Assembly: GCF_900184945.1 (NCBI RefSeq)
Contig: NZ_FXYF01000005.1
Coordinates: 124,001 to 188,000, forward strand
Origin: Antarctobacter aquimaris
GTDB taxonomy: Bacteria > Pseudomonadota > Alphaproteobacteria > Rhodobacterales > Rhodobacteraceae
DNA length: 64,000 bases
Reading direction: 5' to 3'
The stretch's first letter is position 1. Each line of letters starts with the position of its first letter. Shown here one piece after another: positions 13,151 through 31,792 of this stretch. The position numbers and the translations under genes are program-made. Below the pieces are notes generated by a model. The model was not told where the DNA came from. It made no database searches and was given only the letters and a program-made list of their open reading frames with translations.

Positions 13151-15322
13151 ATGAGCACCTCCAAGGGAAAACCCAGGCGGCTGGTGGCGGACCGCCGTTA
13201 TCCGCGCGGCGCGGCGCCGGACAAACAGGCCGCCAAATCCGCCAAGCCGGCCAAGCCGGCCAGGACCCGCAGCCGCCGCACACCGGCCCGGGCGCGGCGC
13301 CGGGGGCCGATCGGGGTGCTGGCGGCGCTGGCGTCGTGGATCGTGCGGCTGGTCTTGCGGGTGACGATTTCGGCCGTGGTGGTGGCGGGGCTGATCCTGG
13401 GCGGGGCGGTGCTGTACACCTACAGTTCGCTGCCCGACCTGTCGCAGGTGCTGGACGGGCGGGCGCGCGGGTCGGTCACGCTGCTGGACCGCGATGGCGA
13501 AGTCTTTGCCCTGCGCGGCGACCAGTTCGGCGGCATCGTCACCGCCGAAAGCGTGTCGCCGCACCTCAAGAACGCGGTTGTCGCCACCGAGGACCGGCGG
13601 TTCTACTGGCACTTCGGCGTCAGCCCGCGCGGCGTGGCCGGCGCCATCCGCATCAACCTGAGCGAGGGGCGCGGGCCGCTGTCGGGGCACGGCGGTTCGA
13701 CCATCACGCAGCAGACCGCCAAGCTGCTGTGCCTTGGCGTCGAATACGACCCGACCGTGTGGAAGAAGGAAGCCGACTACCTCGCCGACTGCCGCGCCGG
13801 TTCGCTCAAGCGCAAGGCGCAGGAGGCGATCTATGCCATGGCCATGGAGGCCAAGTACACCAAGGACGAGATCCTCTCGATCTACCTCAACCGCGCCTAC
13901 ATGGGCAGCGGCGCCTATGGCGCCGAGGCCGCGGCGCAGCGGTATTTCTCGAAACCGGCCAGCGCGCTGAACCCGGCCGAGGCGGCGATGCTGGCGGGGC
14001 TGCTGACCGCGCCCTCGACGCTGGCGCCGACGGCGAACCTCAAGCGCAGCCAGGACCGCGCGGCGACGGTGCTGCGGCTGATGAACGAACAGGGCTACCT
14101 CAGCAACGAGGAAACCCAGCGCTACCAGGACAACCCGGCGGTTCTGTCCGACAACGCATCGGCCATGCGCGGCGGCTATTTCGCCGACTGGGTGATGCAG
14201 TCGGGGCCGGATTTCTTCACCCGCGACACCACCGAAGACGTGATCATCGAAACCACGTTGGACCAGCGCATGCAGCGCGTCACCGCCGAGGCGGTGAACA
14301 AGGTCATGGGCGAAAAGCTGAAAGCCGGGTCCAAGGCCGAGGTCGCGGTGGTGGTGATGTCGGCGGACGGGGCGGTGCGGGCGATGATCGGCGGGCGCGA
14401 CACCGATGCCTCGGGCCTGTTCAACCGGGCGACGCAGGCGGTGCGGCAGACCGGATCGGCGTTCAAGCCGTTTGTCTACGCCACGGCGCTGGAACTGGGC
14501 TATTCGCCGCTGGATACGGTCGAGGATGCGCCCTACTGCCTGAACATCCCCGGGTCGGGCGAATGGTGCCCGGAAAACTACTCGCGCCAGCATTTCGGCC
14601 GGGTGACCCTGGTCGAGGCGCTGGAGAGGTCGCTGAACGTGCCGGCGGTCAAGGTGTCCGAGAGCGTCGGCCGCGACCTGGTGCTGCGGGTGGCGCGCGA
14701 TTTCGGCATCGTGCGCGAGCTGTCGGACACGCCCGCGCTGGCGCTTGGCGCGTCCGAGGCGACTCTGCTGGAGATGACCGGCGCCTATGCCGGCATCCTG
14801 AACGGCGGCTCTTCGGTGACACCCTACGGGCTGCGGGTGCTGCGGCTGAAAGGCCAGCCCGAGCCGCTGATGGGGTCCGGCGGCGGCATCGGCGAACGCG
14901 TGGTGCGCGAGGAAGCGGCCCGACAGCTGGTCTGGATGATGCACAAGGTGGTGACCAGTGGCACCGGCGGCCGCGCCGCCCTGCCCGACCGCCAGGTCGC
15001 CGGCAAGACCGGCACCAGCCAGGAGGCCCGCGACGCCTGGTTCGTCGGCTTCACCGCCGACTACGTGGCCGGCGTCTGGATGGGCTACGACGACAACACG
15101 CCGCTTCAGGGGGTGACGGGCAGCGGGCTGCCGGCGGAGATCTGGCACGAGGTGATGCTGCGCATCCACGAGGGCCTGCCGCCGCGGCCCCTGCCGATGA
15201 CGGAGCCGGTGGCGCCGGTGGTCGTGCAGCCCGAACCGGCGCCGGTCCCGCAACAGGACCGACAACAGCAACGCCAGACCATCCTGGAGCAGGTTCTGCG
15301 GGATCTGCTGGGCGGAAACTGA
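13151..15322 (+). CDS. Class A penicillin-binding protein 1A (glycosyltransferase/transpeptidase)
   Basis: Bifunctional peptidoglycan synthase of 723 residues. A very basic cytoplasmic tail (about 1-58, Lys/Arg/Pro rich) precedes one membrane helix (about 62-88). The GT51 domain follows, with catalytic Glu in ATEDRRFYWHFG and the motif GSTITQQTAKL. An insertion holding two Cys (LLCLGVEYD and ADCRAG) sits inside this domain. The transpeptidase domain has SxxK in TGSAFKPF (about residue 436), SxN in SLNVP and KTG in AGKTGTSQ (about 617), so both activities look intact. The C-terminus is Pro/Gln rich. It is transcribed divergently from glnK and ends before a row of four palindromes. The exact paralogue (PBP1A or a related type) cannot be fixed from sequence alone. 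Confidence 0.93.
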   Translation: MSTSKGKPRRLVADRRYPRGAAPDKQAAKSAKPAKPARTRSRRTPARARRRGPIGVLAALASWIVRLVLRVTISAVVVAGLILGGAVLYTYSSLPDLSQVLDGRARGSVTLLDRDGEVFALRGDQFGGIVTAESVSPHLKNAVVATEDRRFYWHFGVSPRGVAGAIRINLSEGRGPLSGHGGSTITQQTAKLLCLGVEYDPTVWKKEADYLADCRAGSLKRKAQEAIYAMAMEAKYTKDEILSIYLNRAYMGSGAYGAEAAAQRYFSKPASALNPAEAAMLAGLLTAPSTLAPTANLKRSQDRAATVLRLMNEQGYLSNEETQRYQDNPAVLSDNASAMRGGYFADWVMQSGPDFFTRDTTEDVIIETTLDQRMQRVTAEAVNKVMGEKLKAGSKAEVAVVVMSADGAVRAMIGGRDTDASGLFNRATQAVRQTGSAFKPFVYATALELGYSPLDTVEDAPYCLNIPGSGEWCPENYSRQHFGRVTLVEALERSLNVPAVKVSESVGRDLVLRVARDFGIVRELSDTPALALGASEATLLEMTGAYAGILNGGSSVTPYGLRVLRLKGQPEPLMGSGGGIGERVVREEAARQLVWMMHKVVTSGTGGRAALPDRQVAGKTGTSQEARDAWFVGFTADYVAGVWMGYDDNTPLQGVTGSGLPAEIWHEVMLRIHEGLPPRPLPMTEPVAPVVVQPEPAPVPQQDRQQQRQTILEQVLRDLLGGN

Positions 15323-15351
15323 GAGGGGCGCGCGCGGGTCATGCCGGGGGA

Positions 15352-15446
15352 AAAGGGCCTTCGAAGGCCCTTTCTCAACGCGCTTGCAAGCGCGTTTTCA
15401 AGCGGCTTCGAAGCCGCTTGAAAGAAAGGCGTTTCGAAACGCCTTT
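15352..15446. repeat. Four tandem perfect palindromes between convergent genes
   Basis: Four uninterrupted perfect inverted repeats lie almost end to end: 15352-15373 (22 bp, centre TTCGAA), 15377-15396 (20 bp, centre TTGCAA), 15397-15422 (26 bp, centre TTCGAA) and 15425-15446 (22 bp, centre TTCGAA). None has a spacer at its centre. Arms differ between units, so they are not copies of one another. They separate the convergent pbp and mlaC genes. Some could act as two-way terminators: the first and last are flanked by A/T triplets. Confidence 0.9.
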
Positions 15447-15469
15447 CCCGTGCGGGACGGGCGCCGCGC

Positions 15470-16057
15470 TCAGCCTGCCCTGCGCAGGTCCGCGATCAGC
15501 GTGTCGATGTTGCCGCGACGGGCGTCCAGCATGGCGCCGATCTCGGTCCGCTCGGTCAGCAGCATGTCCACGCCCTCGATGAACATGTTGTAGAAACGCT
15601 TCGAGTCGGAGACGTGAAAGCTGACCTCGAACGGGTCGGTGCCCCGCAGGAACGCCGTGCACTGCACCTCGTAGCCGCGGCGGATCGTCTTGACCCTCTG
15701 CACGTCGAGCCGCCCGCCGATAAACTCGCGGAACCGCTTGCCGTACTTGCGCGAGATGTAGCCGGTGAAGGCCTCGGTAAAGGCCTTCTTCTGCGCGTTG
15801 GTCGCGCGCCGCCCGTCCACCCCCAGCGCGGTCGCGGCGATCACCTTGGTGTCGCCGTACTTGACGAAGATGCGTTCGAACTCGCGGAACATGCCCGACT
15901 CGGACTTGCCCGAGGCGATGACGGCGTTGATCTCTTCGACCATCCTGCCAACCAGCGCCGCCGCCTCCTGGCCGCTCAGGGCCAGCGCCGGCGCGGCGGG
16001 CAAGGCGGCCAGCGCCGCTCCGGTGGTGAGGAAGCTGCGTCGTGTCAGGTGAGTCAT
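15470..16057 (-). CDS. MlaC/Ttg2D family phospholipid-binding protein
   Basis: Periplasmic shuttle of the Mla system, carrying phospholipids between outer and inner membrane to keep outer-membrane lipid asymmetry. The 195-residue protein begins with a twin-arginine-like export signal (TRRSFLTTGAALAALPAAPALA). The mature part shows the MlaC pattern: ALGVDGRRATNAQKKAFTEAF (about 77-97), the YISRKYGKRFREF segment and DMLLTERTEI near the C-terminus. It lies 13 nt after mlaA on the same strand, so the two are co-transcribed. The MlaFED transporter genes are not in the window. The name fits the family, although the sequence signatures were compared from memory only. Confidence 0.88.
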   Translation of the reverse strand: MTHLTRRSFLTTGAALAALPAAPALALSGQEAAALVGRMVEEINAVIASGKSESGMFREFERIFVKYGDTKVIAATALGVDGRRATNAQKKAFTEAFTGYISRKYGKRFREFIGGRLDVQRVKTIRRGYEVQCTAFLRGTDPFEVSFHVSDSKRFYNMFIEGVDMLLTERTEIGAMLDARRGNIDTLIADLRRAG

Positions 16058-16070
16058 GACAGTCTCCTGG

Positions 16071-16817
16071 TCAAAATCCTTCGGTGTCCACCGAAAGGGG
16101 GTCGAAATCTGCCCCGCCCGGGGCCTCTTCGCCCAATTCGTGCCGGCGGTTCTGAAGATACATCAGCCGCAGTTGCGCGTAGCTGTCGGCGCTGGCGTAG
16201 ACCGACTCGATGATGCCGTCAAACTGGCTGCGCTCGCCGATCTTGTCCAACCCCTTGGCAACGGTGCCGATGTAGCGTTCCGGCTTGGGTACAACATACG
16301 CCACCGGGTCCGTCAGCAGGTCGACGAGGATACCGGCGGTATCCCGCTCGGTCGAGGGGCCGAGCAGCGGCAGTTCCTGGTAGGCGCCCTCGGGCACGCC
16401 CCAGACGGACAGCGTCTCGCCAAAGCCGGAGTCGTCCGGCGCCAGCCCCCATTCGTTGGCCACGTCGAACAGACCGCCCACCCCGATGGTCGCGTTCAGC
16501 GTAAAGCGCATGGTGTTGGAGGTGGCGCGCACGAGCCGGCCCTGCAACAGCTGGTTGACCACGGTCTGCGGCAGCGACACCGTGTCGGCAAAGGTGGAGA
16601 TCCGATCCTGCGCGAAACCCGGCACCACCCCGGCGTAGCCCGGCCCGTCGCCGGAGAACAGCCGCGTGTCGAGATCGCGGTTGAAGGCATGCACCTTGCG
16701 GTTCTGCGTCTCGTAGGGATCGTGGATGCCTTCGGGAGCGCCGCCCGGTCCCGGCACGGAACACCCGGCCAGGACTGCGGCCACCCCTGCCAGCATCACC
16801 ACCCTGGATCCACGCAT
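16071..16817 (-). CDS. mlaA: MlaA (VacJ) family outer-membrane lipoprotein
   Basis: Outer-membrane component of the Mla pathway that removes misplaced phospholipids from the outer leaflet. The 248-residue protein has a lipoprotein signal with lipobox LAGC (Cys19). The MlaA core follows: DPYETQNRKVHAFNRDLD (about 35-52), then a segment of the NATIGVGGLFDVA type, FGETLSVWGVPEGAYQELPLLGPST and RDTAGILVDLLTDPV. It is the first gene of a two-gene operon with mlaC. The upstream region is shared with the divergent type I secretion genes and contains inverted repeats. Confidence 0.93.
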   Translation of the reverse strand: MRGSRVVMLAGVAAVLAGCSVPGPGGAPEGIHDPYETQNRKVHAFNRDLDTRLFSGDGPGYAGVVPGFAQDRISTFADTVSLPQTVVNQLLQGRLVRATSNTMRFTLNATIGVGGLFDVANEWGLAPDDSGFGETLSVWGVPEGAYQELPLLGPSTERDTAGILVDLLTDPVAYVVPKPERYIGTVAKGLDKIGERSQFDGIIESVYASADSYAQLRLMYLQNRRHELGEEAPGGADFDPLSVDTEGF

Positions 16818-18744: not shown

Positions 18745-20045
18745 CCCCTGAACAGCAATTCTCCGTGCGCAGTCCGATGATCGCGGGGATCATCGGGCTG
18801 GTGATCCTGGTCGGCGGCTTTGGCGGCTGGTCCGCGACCACCATGATCTCGGGGGCGATCGTCGCCAGTGGCCAGATCCAGGTCGACCGGAACCGCCAGG
18901 TGGTGCAGCACCCCGACGGCGGCGTGGTGGCCGAGATCCTCGTCGAGGAGGGCGACACCGTGACCGAGGGTGAGATCCTGATCAAGCTCGACCCGACGCT
19001 GCTGCGTTCGGAACTCAAGATCACCGAGGGCCAGCTCTACGAGATCATGGCCCGCCGCGCCCGGCTCCAGGCCGAGCGCGACAACGGCGACGAGATCGTC
19101 TTTGCCGAGGAACTGCTGGCCCGCGCCGAACTGGACCCGGAGGTCTTTGAACTGGTCGAAGGCCAGCGCAACCTGTTCTTTGCCCGCCGCGAATCGGTGC
19201 AGGCGGAGATCGAGCAGTTGTCCAAGCGGTCCGACCAGATCGCCGACCAGGTGATCGGCATCGAGGCGCAGCAGGAGGCGCTGGGCCGCCAGCTGGAGCT
19301 GATTCGCGAGGAACTGGTGGGCAAGGAGGAGCTGCGCAAGCAGGGCCTTGTCCGCGCGCCCGAGATCCTGGCCCTGCAACGCGAGGAAGCCCGGCTGGCC
19401 GGGTCGGTCGGCGAGCTGACCGCCACAAAGGCGCAGGCCGAAGGCCGCATCACGGAAATCGACATCCAGATCCTGACCCTGCGTACCAAGCGCCGCGAGG
19501 AGGCGATCACCACCCTGCGCGACCTGCAGTTCCGCGAACGCGAGCTGGCCGAACAGCGCCTGGCGATCCGCGAACGCCTGAGCCGGATGGAGATCACCGC
19601 CCCGGTCGACGGCATCGTCTACGGGCTGACGGTCTTTGCGCAGCGCTCGGTCGTGCGGCCGGCCGATCCGGTGATGTTCATCATCCCGCAGGACCGCCCG
19701 CTGGTGATCGCAGCCCAGGTCGAGCCGATCCACATCGACCAGATCTACATCAACCAGGAGGTGTCTCTGCGCTTTTCCTCGCTGGACCAGCGCGAGACGC
19801 CGGAACTGTTCGGCCACCTGACCAAGATCTCGGCCGACGCCTTTCAGGACCAGAACACCGGCATCCAGTACTACCGGGTCGAAATCGTGCTGAGCGAGGG
19901 CGAGGCCGCGCGCCTGCCCGAGGGCACAGTGCTGATCCCCGGCATGCCGGTCGAGGCCTTCATCCGCACCGCCGACCGCACGCCGCTGGCCTACCTCGTG
20001 AAACCCTTCACCGACTACTTTGCCAAGGCGTTCCGCGAAAGCTGA
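18741..20045 (+). CDS. HlyD family type I secretion periplasmic adaptor
   Basis: Membrane fusion protein linking the upstream ABC exporter to a TolC-like outer-membrane channel. The 434-residue product has one N-terminal membrane helix (about 12-35), then the first half of a lipoyl domain (VVQHPDGGVVAEILVEEGDTV). A long coiled-coil region rich in Glu/Gln/Arg (about 90-275) follows, then the second lipoyl half (MEITAPVDGIVYGL) and a beta-barrel to the end. These features match PrtE/AprE. It overlaps the ABC gene by 4 nt. A hairpin terminator lies 19-50 nt downstream. Confidence 0.93.
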   Translation: MTPEQQFSVRSPMIAGIIGLVILVGGFGGWSATTMISGAIVASGQIQVDRNRQVVQHPDGGVVAEILVEEGDTVTEGEILIKLDPTLLRSELKITEGQLYEIMARRARLQAERDNGDEIVFAEELLARAELDPEVFELVEGQRNLFFARRESVQAEIEQLSKRSDQIADQVIGIEAQQEALGRQLELIREELVGKEELRKQGLVRAPEILALQREEARLAGSVGELTATKAQAEGRITEIDIQILTLRTKRREEAITTLRDLQFRERELAEQRLAIRERLSRMEITAPVDGIVYGLTVFAQRSVVRPADPVMFIIPQDRPLVIAAQVEPIHIDQIYINQEVSLRFSSLDQRETPELFGHLTKISADAFQDQNTGIQYYRVEIVLSEGEAARLPEGTVLIPGMPVEAFIRTADRTPLAYLVKPFTDYFAKAFRES

Positions 20046-31080: not shown

Positions 31081-31740
31081 ATGTCGTTCATCACGCTGGT
31101 CCGCCACGGACAGGCCAATTCCAGCGCCCGCGACGAGACGGGCTATGACCGGCTGAGCGATCTCGGCTGGCAGCAATCGCGCTGGCTGGGCGGATACTTC
31201 AGCCAGACTGGCGAGAAATTCGCCCGCGTCTACCACGGCACCCTGCGCCGCCACCGCGAAACGCTGGAGGGGATCGCGCCCGCCAGCCTGACTGAGCCGG
31301 TCGAGGACGCGCGTCTCAATGAACTGGCCTATTTCCACATGGCGCAACTGCTGCACCAGCAGCACGGCATCGCCGTGCCCAACGACCGCGAAGGCTTTGT
31401 CCGCCACCTGCCGCTGCTCTACACCCACTGGCGCGAAGGGCGGCTGGAGGGCGCGCCGGAAAGCTGGGACAGCTTCGAGACCCGCGTGCGCGAGGTGCTG
31501 CACGAGATCGCCAAAGGGGACGGCCGCGCGCTGGTGGTGACCTCGGGCGGGCTGATCGGCATGGCGATGCGGCTGGTGATGCGGCTCGACCTCCAGGCCA
31601 TGGCGCACGCCTGCCTGGCGGTCGAGAACAGCTCGCTCCACCGCATCCAGCCGCTGTCGACCGGCCTCGCGCTGACCCAGTTCAACGCCCTCCCCCACCT
31701 CGACACGCCCGACCGTCAACACGCCCGCAGCCACCTGTGA
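31081..31740 (+). CDS. Histidine phosphatase (phosphoglycerate mutase-like) family protein
   Basis: Cytoplasmic phosphatase of 219 residues. The catalytic RHG motif is in ITLVRHGQANSS (about 4-15), whose His forms the phosphohistidine. The second Arg is in YHGTLRRHRETLEGI, the proton-donor Glu region in RLNELAYFHM and the second His-containing motif in LVVTSGGLIGMAMRL; here the usual GH pair is GG, so one of the four pocket residues differs. LEGAPESWDSFETRV matches the family middle. Substrate unknown; sugar phosphates are common in the family. An AT-rich double hairpin starts 5 nt past the stop. Confidence 0.87.
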   Translation: MSFITLVRHGQANSSARDETGYDRLSDLGWQQSRWLGGYFSQTGEKFARVYHGTLRRHRETLEGIAPASLTEPVEDARLNELAYFHMAQLLHQQHGIAVPNDREGFVRHLPLLYTHWREGRLEGAPESWDSFETRVREVLHEIAKGDGRALVVTSGGLIGMAMRLVMRLDLQAMAHACLAVENSSLHRIQPLSTGLALTQFNALPHLDTPDRQHARSHL

Positions 31741-31745
31741 GGGCA

Positions 31746-31792
31746 AAATTTCCGACCCGGAAATTTGCAAGAATTTTGATAAAAATTCTTGC
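31746..31792. terminator. Two adjacent AT-rich hairpins after the phosphatase gene
   Basis: AAATTTCCG-ACC-CGGAAATTT (31746-31766) is followed without a gap by GCAAGAATTTT-GATA-AAAATTCTTGC (31767-31792, 11-bp stem). Their A/T content is far above the surrounding DNA. They lie between a phosphatase gene and a secreted-protein gene on the same strand. Terminator or RNA-stabilising function is inferred; there is no long T run. Confidence 0.65.

Follow-up and report, generated by a model that had tools for sequence, protein, structure and literature searches.

Palindrome arrays at gene ends in Antarctobacter aquimaris and other Rhodobacteraceae: a putative multi-hairpin element with a candidate protein partner

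The RIME and ABC elements of rhizobia, which are alphaproteobacteria, consist of palindromic modules arranged as mosaics between genes. Bidirectional intrinsic terminators were reportedly described by Ju et al. in 2019, and how GC-rich alphaproteobacteria end transcription where genes converge is, to our knowledge, poorly understood. REPs lie behind genes and avoid divergent gaps, according to an excerpt of PMC3733652. In the partial text of PMC12207403, A-tracts are given as marks of bidirectional terminators, and that of PMC8269248 describes GC stem-loops without a U-tract at the transcript ends of Streptomyces (HS-U-lack TEPs).

Here, we analysed a stretch of 64,000 nucleotides from A. aquimaris (the window), in which a preliminary description had pointed to a row of four palindromes. 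Judged from sequence comparison, this row is best read as a copy of a multi-hairpin element that Rhodobacteraceae carry at gene ends.

The array between the PBP1A and mlaC genes

The intergenic space that separates PBP1A from mlaC is occupied by four perfect spacerless palindromes of 22, 20, 28 and 24 bp. The gene of the class A penicillin-binding protein (Transgly and Transpeptidase; 13151..15322, plus strand) has its stop codon 30 bp before the array core, and the stop codon of the MlaC gene (15470..16057, minus strand) is 24 bp from the core on the opposite side. The preliminary description correctly had the row dividing these two convergent genes. It had also recorded four perfect palindromes with centres TTCGAA or TTGCAA; both points hold (TTCGAA three times, TTGCAA once), and the lengths given for the third and fourth palindromes, 26 and 22 bp, are corrected here to 28 and 24 bp.

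The whole four-unit array (15353..15445) reads in the order A-B-C-D on the minus strand, with start-to-start spacings of 26, 23 and 24 bp. Unit A (15424..15447, 24 bp, core AAGGCGTTTCGAAACGCCTT) is the outer unit that adjoins the mlaC stop codon. It is followed by unit B (15396..15423, 28 bp, core AAGCGGCTTCGAAGCCGCTT) and by unit C (15377..15396, the 20 bp AACGCGCTTGCAAGCGCGTT, centre TTGCAA), an inner unit of the C type. Unit D (15352..15373, the 22 bp AAAGGGCCTTCGAAGGCCCTTT, centre TTCGAA) is the other outer unit and adjoins the PBP1A stop codon. No other palindromes with arms of at least 9 were found in the 64 kb window; for arms of at least 10, about 0.3 per 64 kb are expected by chance (20 dinucleotide shuffles).

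When folded as RNA, each strand of the array gave four hairpins (z = −5.88 and −5.69), and the plus strand folded as DNA also gave four (z = −6.95). A stable hairpin on both strands, which is looked for in bidirectional terminators, is therefore a property of the array. Whether as RNA or as single-stranded DNA, every palindrome forms a hairpin whose loop has 4 nt, so that the absence of a spacer does not mean an impossible loop. A scan for the intrinsic-terminator consensus flagged the array on neither strand. Its T-tracts are short, with 2–4 T within or behind the stem, and fall short of the U-rich tract of an intrinsic terminator, a comparison that is crude because the T-run is hidden in stems that an outer G-C pair closes.

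Rfam 15 gave no match above the gathering score in positions 14800–16200 of the window (best 22.6 bits, 48 needed). We also looked for a long-range outer stem that would close the array, and found that the complementarity of the flanks was close to expectation (pair 1, 17/32 against 14.1; pair 3, 11 against 13.9).

Dispersal, common architecture and conservation of the arrays

The first palindrome of the window, with up to three mismatches, was found at 17 forward places in the 5.31 Mb of its own genome, and the general unit AASSSSYTTNNAARSSSSTT at 114 places; the reversed control gave 0 in both searches. Although the general pattern does not demand it, the arms were perfectly complementary in nearly all of the matches listed (about half of the 114), the exceptions being two frames that straddle neighbouring units. 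Further arrays lie at convergent gene ends of this genome, and the search for other such rows that the preliminary description had proposed was thus positive. Conservation in relatives, which it had proposed to check as well, is seen at the level of the family: out of 394 family genomes, 29 carry the TTCGAA form AAGSSSYTTCGAARSSSCTT, each at between 1 and 102 places. As a palindrome it was absent from the 288 others in a 289-genome class sample, where one non-palindromic match occurred.

Among the 80 stretches listed (L093–L172) of at least 106 selected by a pattern of two adjacent units, the named records are Rhodobacteraceae by title, except two filed as Enemella. The genera among the records listed include Nioella, Tropicibacter, Pseudoponticoccus, Marivita, Roseovarius, Ruegeria, Rhodosalinus, Shimia and others. 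The two exceptions (L127, L114), titled with the actinobacterial name Enemella evansiae TN21-6, do carry arrays and probably come from a mislabelled or contaminated assembly. A layout unlike that of the usual compact arrays was observed in L070 (G324), where three direct repeats of near 200 bp each start with two adjacent palindromes, of the AAGCGCC and the GAGGCTT or AAGGCTC types.

The mlaC gap itself does not share in this conservation. Behind mlaC in 26 other array-bearing genomes, for 8 of which the gene caller placed no convergent neighbour, an array was found only in G047, with inverted unit order. The remaining genomes have single hairpins (a single A/T-flanked one in L034 and L043), other repeats or nothing alike. 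In G084 (L204), the gap is taken up by a different palindrome, GTCGGCTGATCCTCAGCCGAC or a near variant, in four copies. Inverted repeats that end in GTAGG or CCTAC and resemble GTAG-type REPs were observed behind mlaC in G341 (L199), and also at positions 19811–19867 of locus L015 in the own genome.

The element has the form of 2–5 short palindromes AASSSSY-TTNNAA-RSSSSTT, mostly 22–25 bp apart, and on either strand each can fold into a stem that carries a 4-nt loop. We compared 32 four-unit arrays, some of them from the own genome and the others from further records; their spacings are about 25/24/25. A C-type unit, defined after inspection of the arrays as one that starts with ACGC, CCGC, ACAC or AACG, occupies one inner place in all 32, so that each array can be read as A-B-C-D. 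The outer units A and D have the centre CG in 32/32, and the inner centres are CG, GC, GG, CC or TG. This rule of TTCGAA at both ends derives partly from loci that were found by a TTCGAA pattern; the four-unit arrays of the own genome (the window, L028, L082, L085) obey it, and three of these were reached without the TTCGAA condition.

The stem letters differ among copies, and sequence comparison shows both arms changing together. Pair 4 of unit A, for example, is G-C in 16 arrays and C-G in 16. Only 4 of 1152 pair cells in the 32 arrays, whose units were accepted with up to one mismatch, are not Watson–Crick pairs. The arms of units A and B are mutually reverse complementary in 9 of 32 arrays against 5.5 expected (p = 0.046), which is a weak signal.

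To examine selection on the arms, we compared 18 arrays that are orthologous between N. ostreopsis and N. sediminis; 5 of 23 aligned cases had been left out as single units or because the array was missing or collapsed in the second species. Between the two species, 3 of 846 arm sites, 1 of 94 centre sites and 44 of 181 linker sites have changed, as have 169 of 1076 sites within 30 bp of the arrays and 930 of 7575 further out. The contrast of the arms with the linkers and near flanks indicates that the arms are under strong selection. All three arm changes are single and unpaired; with no paired change between the species, templated repair is not enough by itself to account for the conservation. 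At one place (L289 in N. ostreopsis, L319 in N. sediminis), a multi-palindrome array has collapsed in one of the species by a deletion between palindromes, which is a sign of recombination or slippage at arrays.

The position of the arrays relative to genes was determined with a purpose-made gene caller trained on GC3-selected ORFs. The 69 arrays with gene context (15 arrays near locus ends were left out) comprise 33 in convergent gaps, 35 in tandem gaps and 1 in a divergent gap. The array-free gaps of at least 60 bp in the same loci number 26 convergent, 111 tandem and 72 divergent (59/149/74 if the gaps with arrays are included), and the arrays differ from them for divergent (p = 1 × 10−9) and convergent (p = 4 × 10−9) gaps. 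As is characteristic of REP-type elements, the arrays stand behind genes and are rare between divergent ones. The clusters around the 49 matches listed for N. ostreopsis are 19 convergent, 18 tandem and 0 divergent; its arrays lie a median of 16.5 bp behind the stop codon, and one further unit is inside a called gene. In a 458 kb sample of the own genome, which took in stretches of C21 and C16 picked for known matches, 6 of 8 clusters are convergent and 2 (L024, L028) were called divergent by the gene caller alone. The 16 own-genome loci divide into 8 convergent, 6 tandem and 2 divergent, most of them being only 3 kb long and their context unreliable.

A small-protein gene linked to the palindromes

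At least two TTCGAA-type units were found upstream of trpB in 17 of the 25 loci examined, and these 17 represent at least 10 genera; the 25 were taken from 30 loci after three same-genome repeats, one partial match and one distant paralogue had been omitted. Of these 17 arrays, 13 begin with AAGGGCY and 12 end with AAGGCGY, and in L230 and L241 the layout is alike with a centre that is mainly GTCGAC. In six loci examined in detail, the array starts 0–2 nt behind the stop codon of a gene for a protein of 76 aa. In Tropicibacter (L112, L234), this gene and the array are placed elsewhere relative to trpB.

Of 61 family genomes, 28 have homologues of the small protein, frequently as paralogues (four in G002); a class sample gave homologues in 1 of 141 other genomes. 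Of 64 homologues, 8 were left out because of frame run-on, truncation or a locus end. Among the 56 clean ones, 55 have a palindrome with arms of at least 8 within 90 nt behind the stop codon and 44 have at least two; upstream of the gene the numbers are 4 and 0. Some of the 56 come from loci selected for arrays, and the loci fetched by the protein alone were therefore counted separately (44 loci, 38 of them clean). All 38 clean homologues have a palindrome behind the stop codon and 28 have at least two, with one upstream in 3 and two in 0. Of the six unclean loci in this set, four have palindromes inside the run-on frame and two have none. In the controls, a palindrome was found behind 67 of 410 other genes of the own genome (at least two behind 10) and behind 38 of 171 neighbour genes (at least two behind 14). 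The first palindrome lies a median of 3 nt behind the stop codon of the small-protein gene. No palindrome was found behind the gene of L373, a distant homologue outside the family.

The palindromes behind small-protein homologues often differ in sequence; those behind the paralogues of G002 have the centres TTCGAA, TCCATCCATGGA, TCTTTGAAAGA and TTTTCGCCGAAAA. Protein identity was correlated with similarity of the centres (r = 0.605, 0/2000 permutations). This correlation is due solely to the TTCGAA group, after the removal of which r was 0.07 (309/2000). By eye, and as a post hoc impression, I/V-C in place of F-C in the small protein tends to go with TTCGN(N)CGAA centres. Among the 61 genomes, a homologue of at least 68% identity occurs in exactly those with at least 32 TTCGAA units, namely G000, G002, G037 and G047 (together in 4/61, apart in 0; Fisher's test, p = 1.9 × 10−6 with kinship ignored).

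Two adjacent AT-rich palindromes, AAATTTCCG-ACC-CGGAAATTT and GCAAGAATTTT-GATA-AAAATTCTTGC, were observed at 31741–31792 of the window, only a few bases past the stop codon with which a predicted gene ends (31081–31740, histidine-phosphatase-like by eye). They resemble the palindromes behind the second small-protein paralogue of the genome (L358, G000:C13), and by this likeness a second palindrome type may be dispersed in the own genome.

The 76-aa protein matched no Pfam or NCBIfam family at E values up to 1, and a search of 27 homologues against the same databases gave just matches of one or two members (best E = 0.011). Weak matches were also obtained with the sequences of solved structures (best E = 0.025). 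A fold model built from seven sequences (pLDDT 74, pTM 0.55) has a small alpha/beta fold of the order H-H-E-H-H-E-E. In VIA-align, R3H domains came first (Z 5.9, rmsd 3.5, 59 aligned; Z 5.7, rmsd 3.0, 58 aligned), followed by CtsR (Z 5.0, rmsd 3.1, 61 aligned), RepE (5.0 and 4.8) and KhpB (4.8). All these matches are below Z 8 and below the trust level; the list is mixed with proteins that lack nucleic-acid binding (SepF, TusA, EPSP synthase), and none stands clear. Foldseek returned nothing for the model at E = 0.001 or better. From the weak fold matches, the small protein may be a nucleic-acid-binding domain of the winged-helix or R3H type. A phage origin was rejected, as viral contigs contained no relative and PHROGs gave three weak single-member matches.

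We also compared the quality of pairing with that of ordinary hairpins at tandem 3' ends. The latter have one mismatch in 59 of 100 cases, a class inflated in this control by chance hairpins, and with 27 G·T against 7 A·C they have an RNA-like look. In arrays and small-protein 3' ends together, one mismatch occurs in 14 of 219 (G·T 4, A·C 4), and in hairpins behind small-protein genes fetched by protein alone it occurs in 4 of 73. The contrast in G·T and A·C between these and the ordinary ends was not significant (p = 0.17), so the argument for the DNA level draws mainly on the perfection of pairing, which is partly ascertained for arrays that were found by pattern. Near-strict Watson–Crick pairing, tandem sites included, separates the arrays from the ordinary hairpins of the same genomes and raises the possibility that DNA hairpins are the working sites.

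Possible functions and comparison with known systems

Beyond the dispersal, the unit order, the co-varying arms, the near-strict Watson–Crick pairing, the place behind stop codons, the selection on arms and the linkage with a protein, all of which the sequences establish, we infer a two-part system, with a confidence that stays somewhat below even. It would consist of a small predicted nucleic-acid-binding protein and its cognate gene-end hairpins on both strands. The protein would bind these hairpins, and the bound array would act on both DNA strands, either as hairpin or cruciform DNA or as hairpin RNAs of both strands. The array could then serve as a boundary at gene ends: it would stop or insulate the transcription of convergent and tandem genes, protect the 3' ends of transcripts, or both. 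In the window, the array at 15352–15447 would keep the transcription of PBP1A and mlaC apart.

More tentatively, a new class of bipartite genome system may be involved. Its proteins of about 76 aa, with up to four paralogues per sampled genome, would each have perfect palindromes of their own (TTCGAA, TCC..GGA, TTTGAAA and TTCGNCGAA types), and one such pair would be deployed dozens of times as a both-strand gene-end hairpin boundary in many Rhodobacteraceae. As the element is abundant, strongly selected and provided with a candidate protein partner, its role is directly testable, and the paralogue-specific palindromes would be a natural recognition code to solve.

An element of single-stranded DNA like the REPs is, on balance, an unlikely explanation that nevertheless accounts for several features. 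In this view, a hairpin element that moves slowly would have the palindromes as its ends or would have left them as remnants, and the small protein would be the recombination or binding factor dedicated to it, much as RAYT serves REP. Gene-end location with avoidance of divergent gaps is as in the REPs of the PMC3733652 excerpt, and the protein gene is tied to its own palindromes. Unit order and spacing kept among dispersed copies, the nearly strict Watson–Crick pairing and the inverted array behind mlaC in G047 would also fit. However, the nearly unchanged arms of the 18 orthologous Nioella arrays imply little movement, arms that differ between copies are unlike a recognised transposon end, and the small protein has no transposase-family match in Pfam or NCBIfam. 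The unusual mobile repeat family that was suggested at first is thus borne out in its dispersal, conserved centres and variable arms, but not in recent mobility, given the Nioella arms and the trpB site common to at least 10 genera.

We consider it distinctly improbable that the rows are plain stacked bidirectional intrinsic terminators, in which several weak terminators add up and the link with the small protein is incidental. Such terminators would leave the 38/38 association with one gene family unexplained, and a common unit order across genes and genera is unexpected if they arose independently. There are only 2–4 T after the GC core, the scan flagged neither strand, and even tandem sites have no excess of G·U, although these numbers are small. 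On the other hand, the arrays are placed after stop codons and in convergent gaps, the GC stem of each unit is preceded by AA(A) and followed by TT(T), four hairpins form on both strands, and some relatives have the single A/T-flanked hairpin behind mlaC; U-poor hairpin 3' ends also occur in a GC-rich bacterium, as far as the partial text of PMC8269248 goes. From the early proposal of stacked terminators under selection, we retain the strong selection on arms and the convergent place, and not a match to the canonical intrinsic-terminator consensus.

Duplex operator sites, at which a dimer of the small protein would regulate or organise DNA without hairpin formation, are very unlikely in our view. 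The conserved centre, the rotational symmetry, the spacing of about 22–25 bp (near two helical turns) and the small predicted fold with weak nucleic-acid-binding matches are what such sites would show. But the SSS letters of the arms vary and nearly always match the partner arm, which points to pairing and not to a fixed half-site, and the sites are behind genes and not at promoters. Neutral upkeep, in which template-switch repair would maintain identical arms without any need for a function, agrees with the near-perfect arms and the paired changes between genera but is scarcely credible, since under templated repair about every second new mutation should by our reasoning become fixed in both arms and so lead to flank-like divergence, instead of the 3/846 changes, all unpaired, in Nioella.

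Compared with described systems, the two-part system that we favour has several partial counterparts. A literature search, which covered titles and the beginnings of abstracts and left most subscription journals outside, yielded no description of the arrays or the small protein among the entries listed, and is no proof of novelty. The likeness to RIME and ABC of rhizobia is one of description only. The HS-U-lack TEPs of Streptomyces share GC stem-loops without a U-tract with the arrays; the array differs in being a dispersed homologous element.

REP/BIME with RAYT (TnpA_REP, a Y1 transposase) shares with the arrays short extragenic palindromes in many copies, mainly behind convergent or tandem genes, and a protein gene associated with its own palindromes. 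The GTAG or CGTC tag of REPs is absent from the arrays (each 0/138 within 8 nt outside the array ends, read inward), and the own genome has no Y1_Tnp, nor have 26 of the 29 array genomes. PF01797 occurs in 3/29 array genomes and 3/28 array-free genomes, and a RAYT or Y1 transposase was rejected as the mobiliser because this family is missing from the own genome and most array genomes. Variable and co-varying arms, a fixed four-unit order and a partner of about 76 aa further set the arrays apart. Bidirectional intrinsic terminators of convergent genes share the symmetric hairpins of A, GC stem and T, whereas the arrays stand in rows of 2–5 with a shared order, short T-tracts and family-wide conservation. 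REP/RAYT, although neither its tag nor its transposase is present here, is the nearest system in anatomy; the terminators, whose intrinsic consensus the arrays do not match, are the nearest in place.
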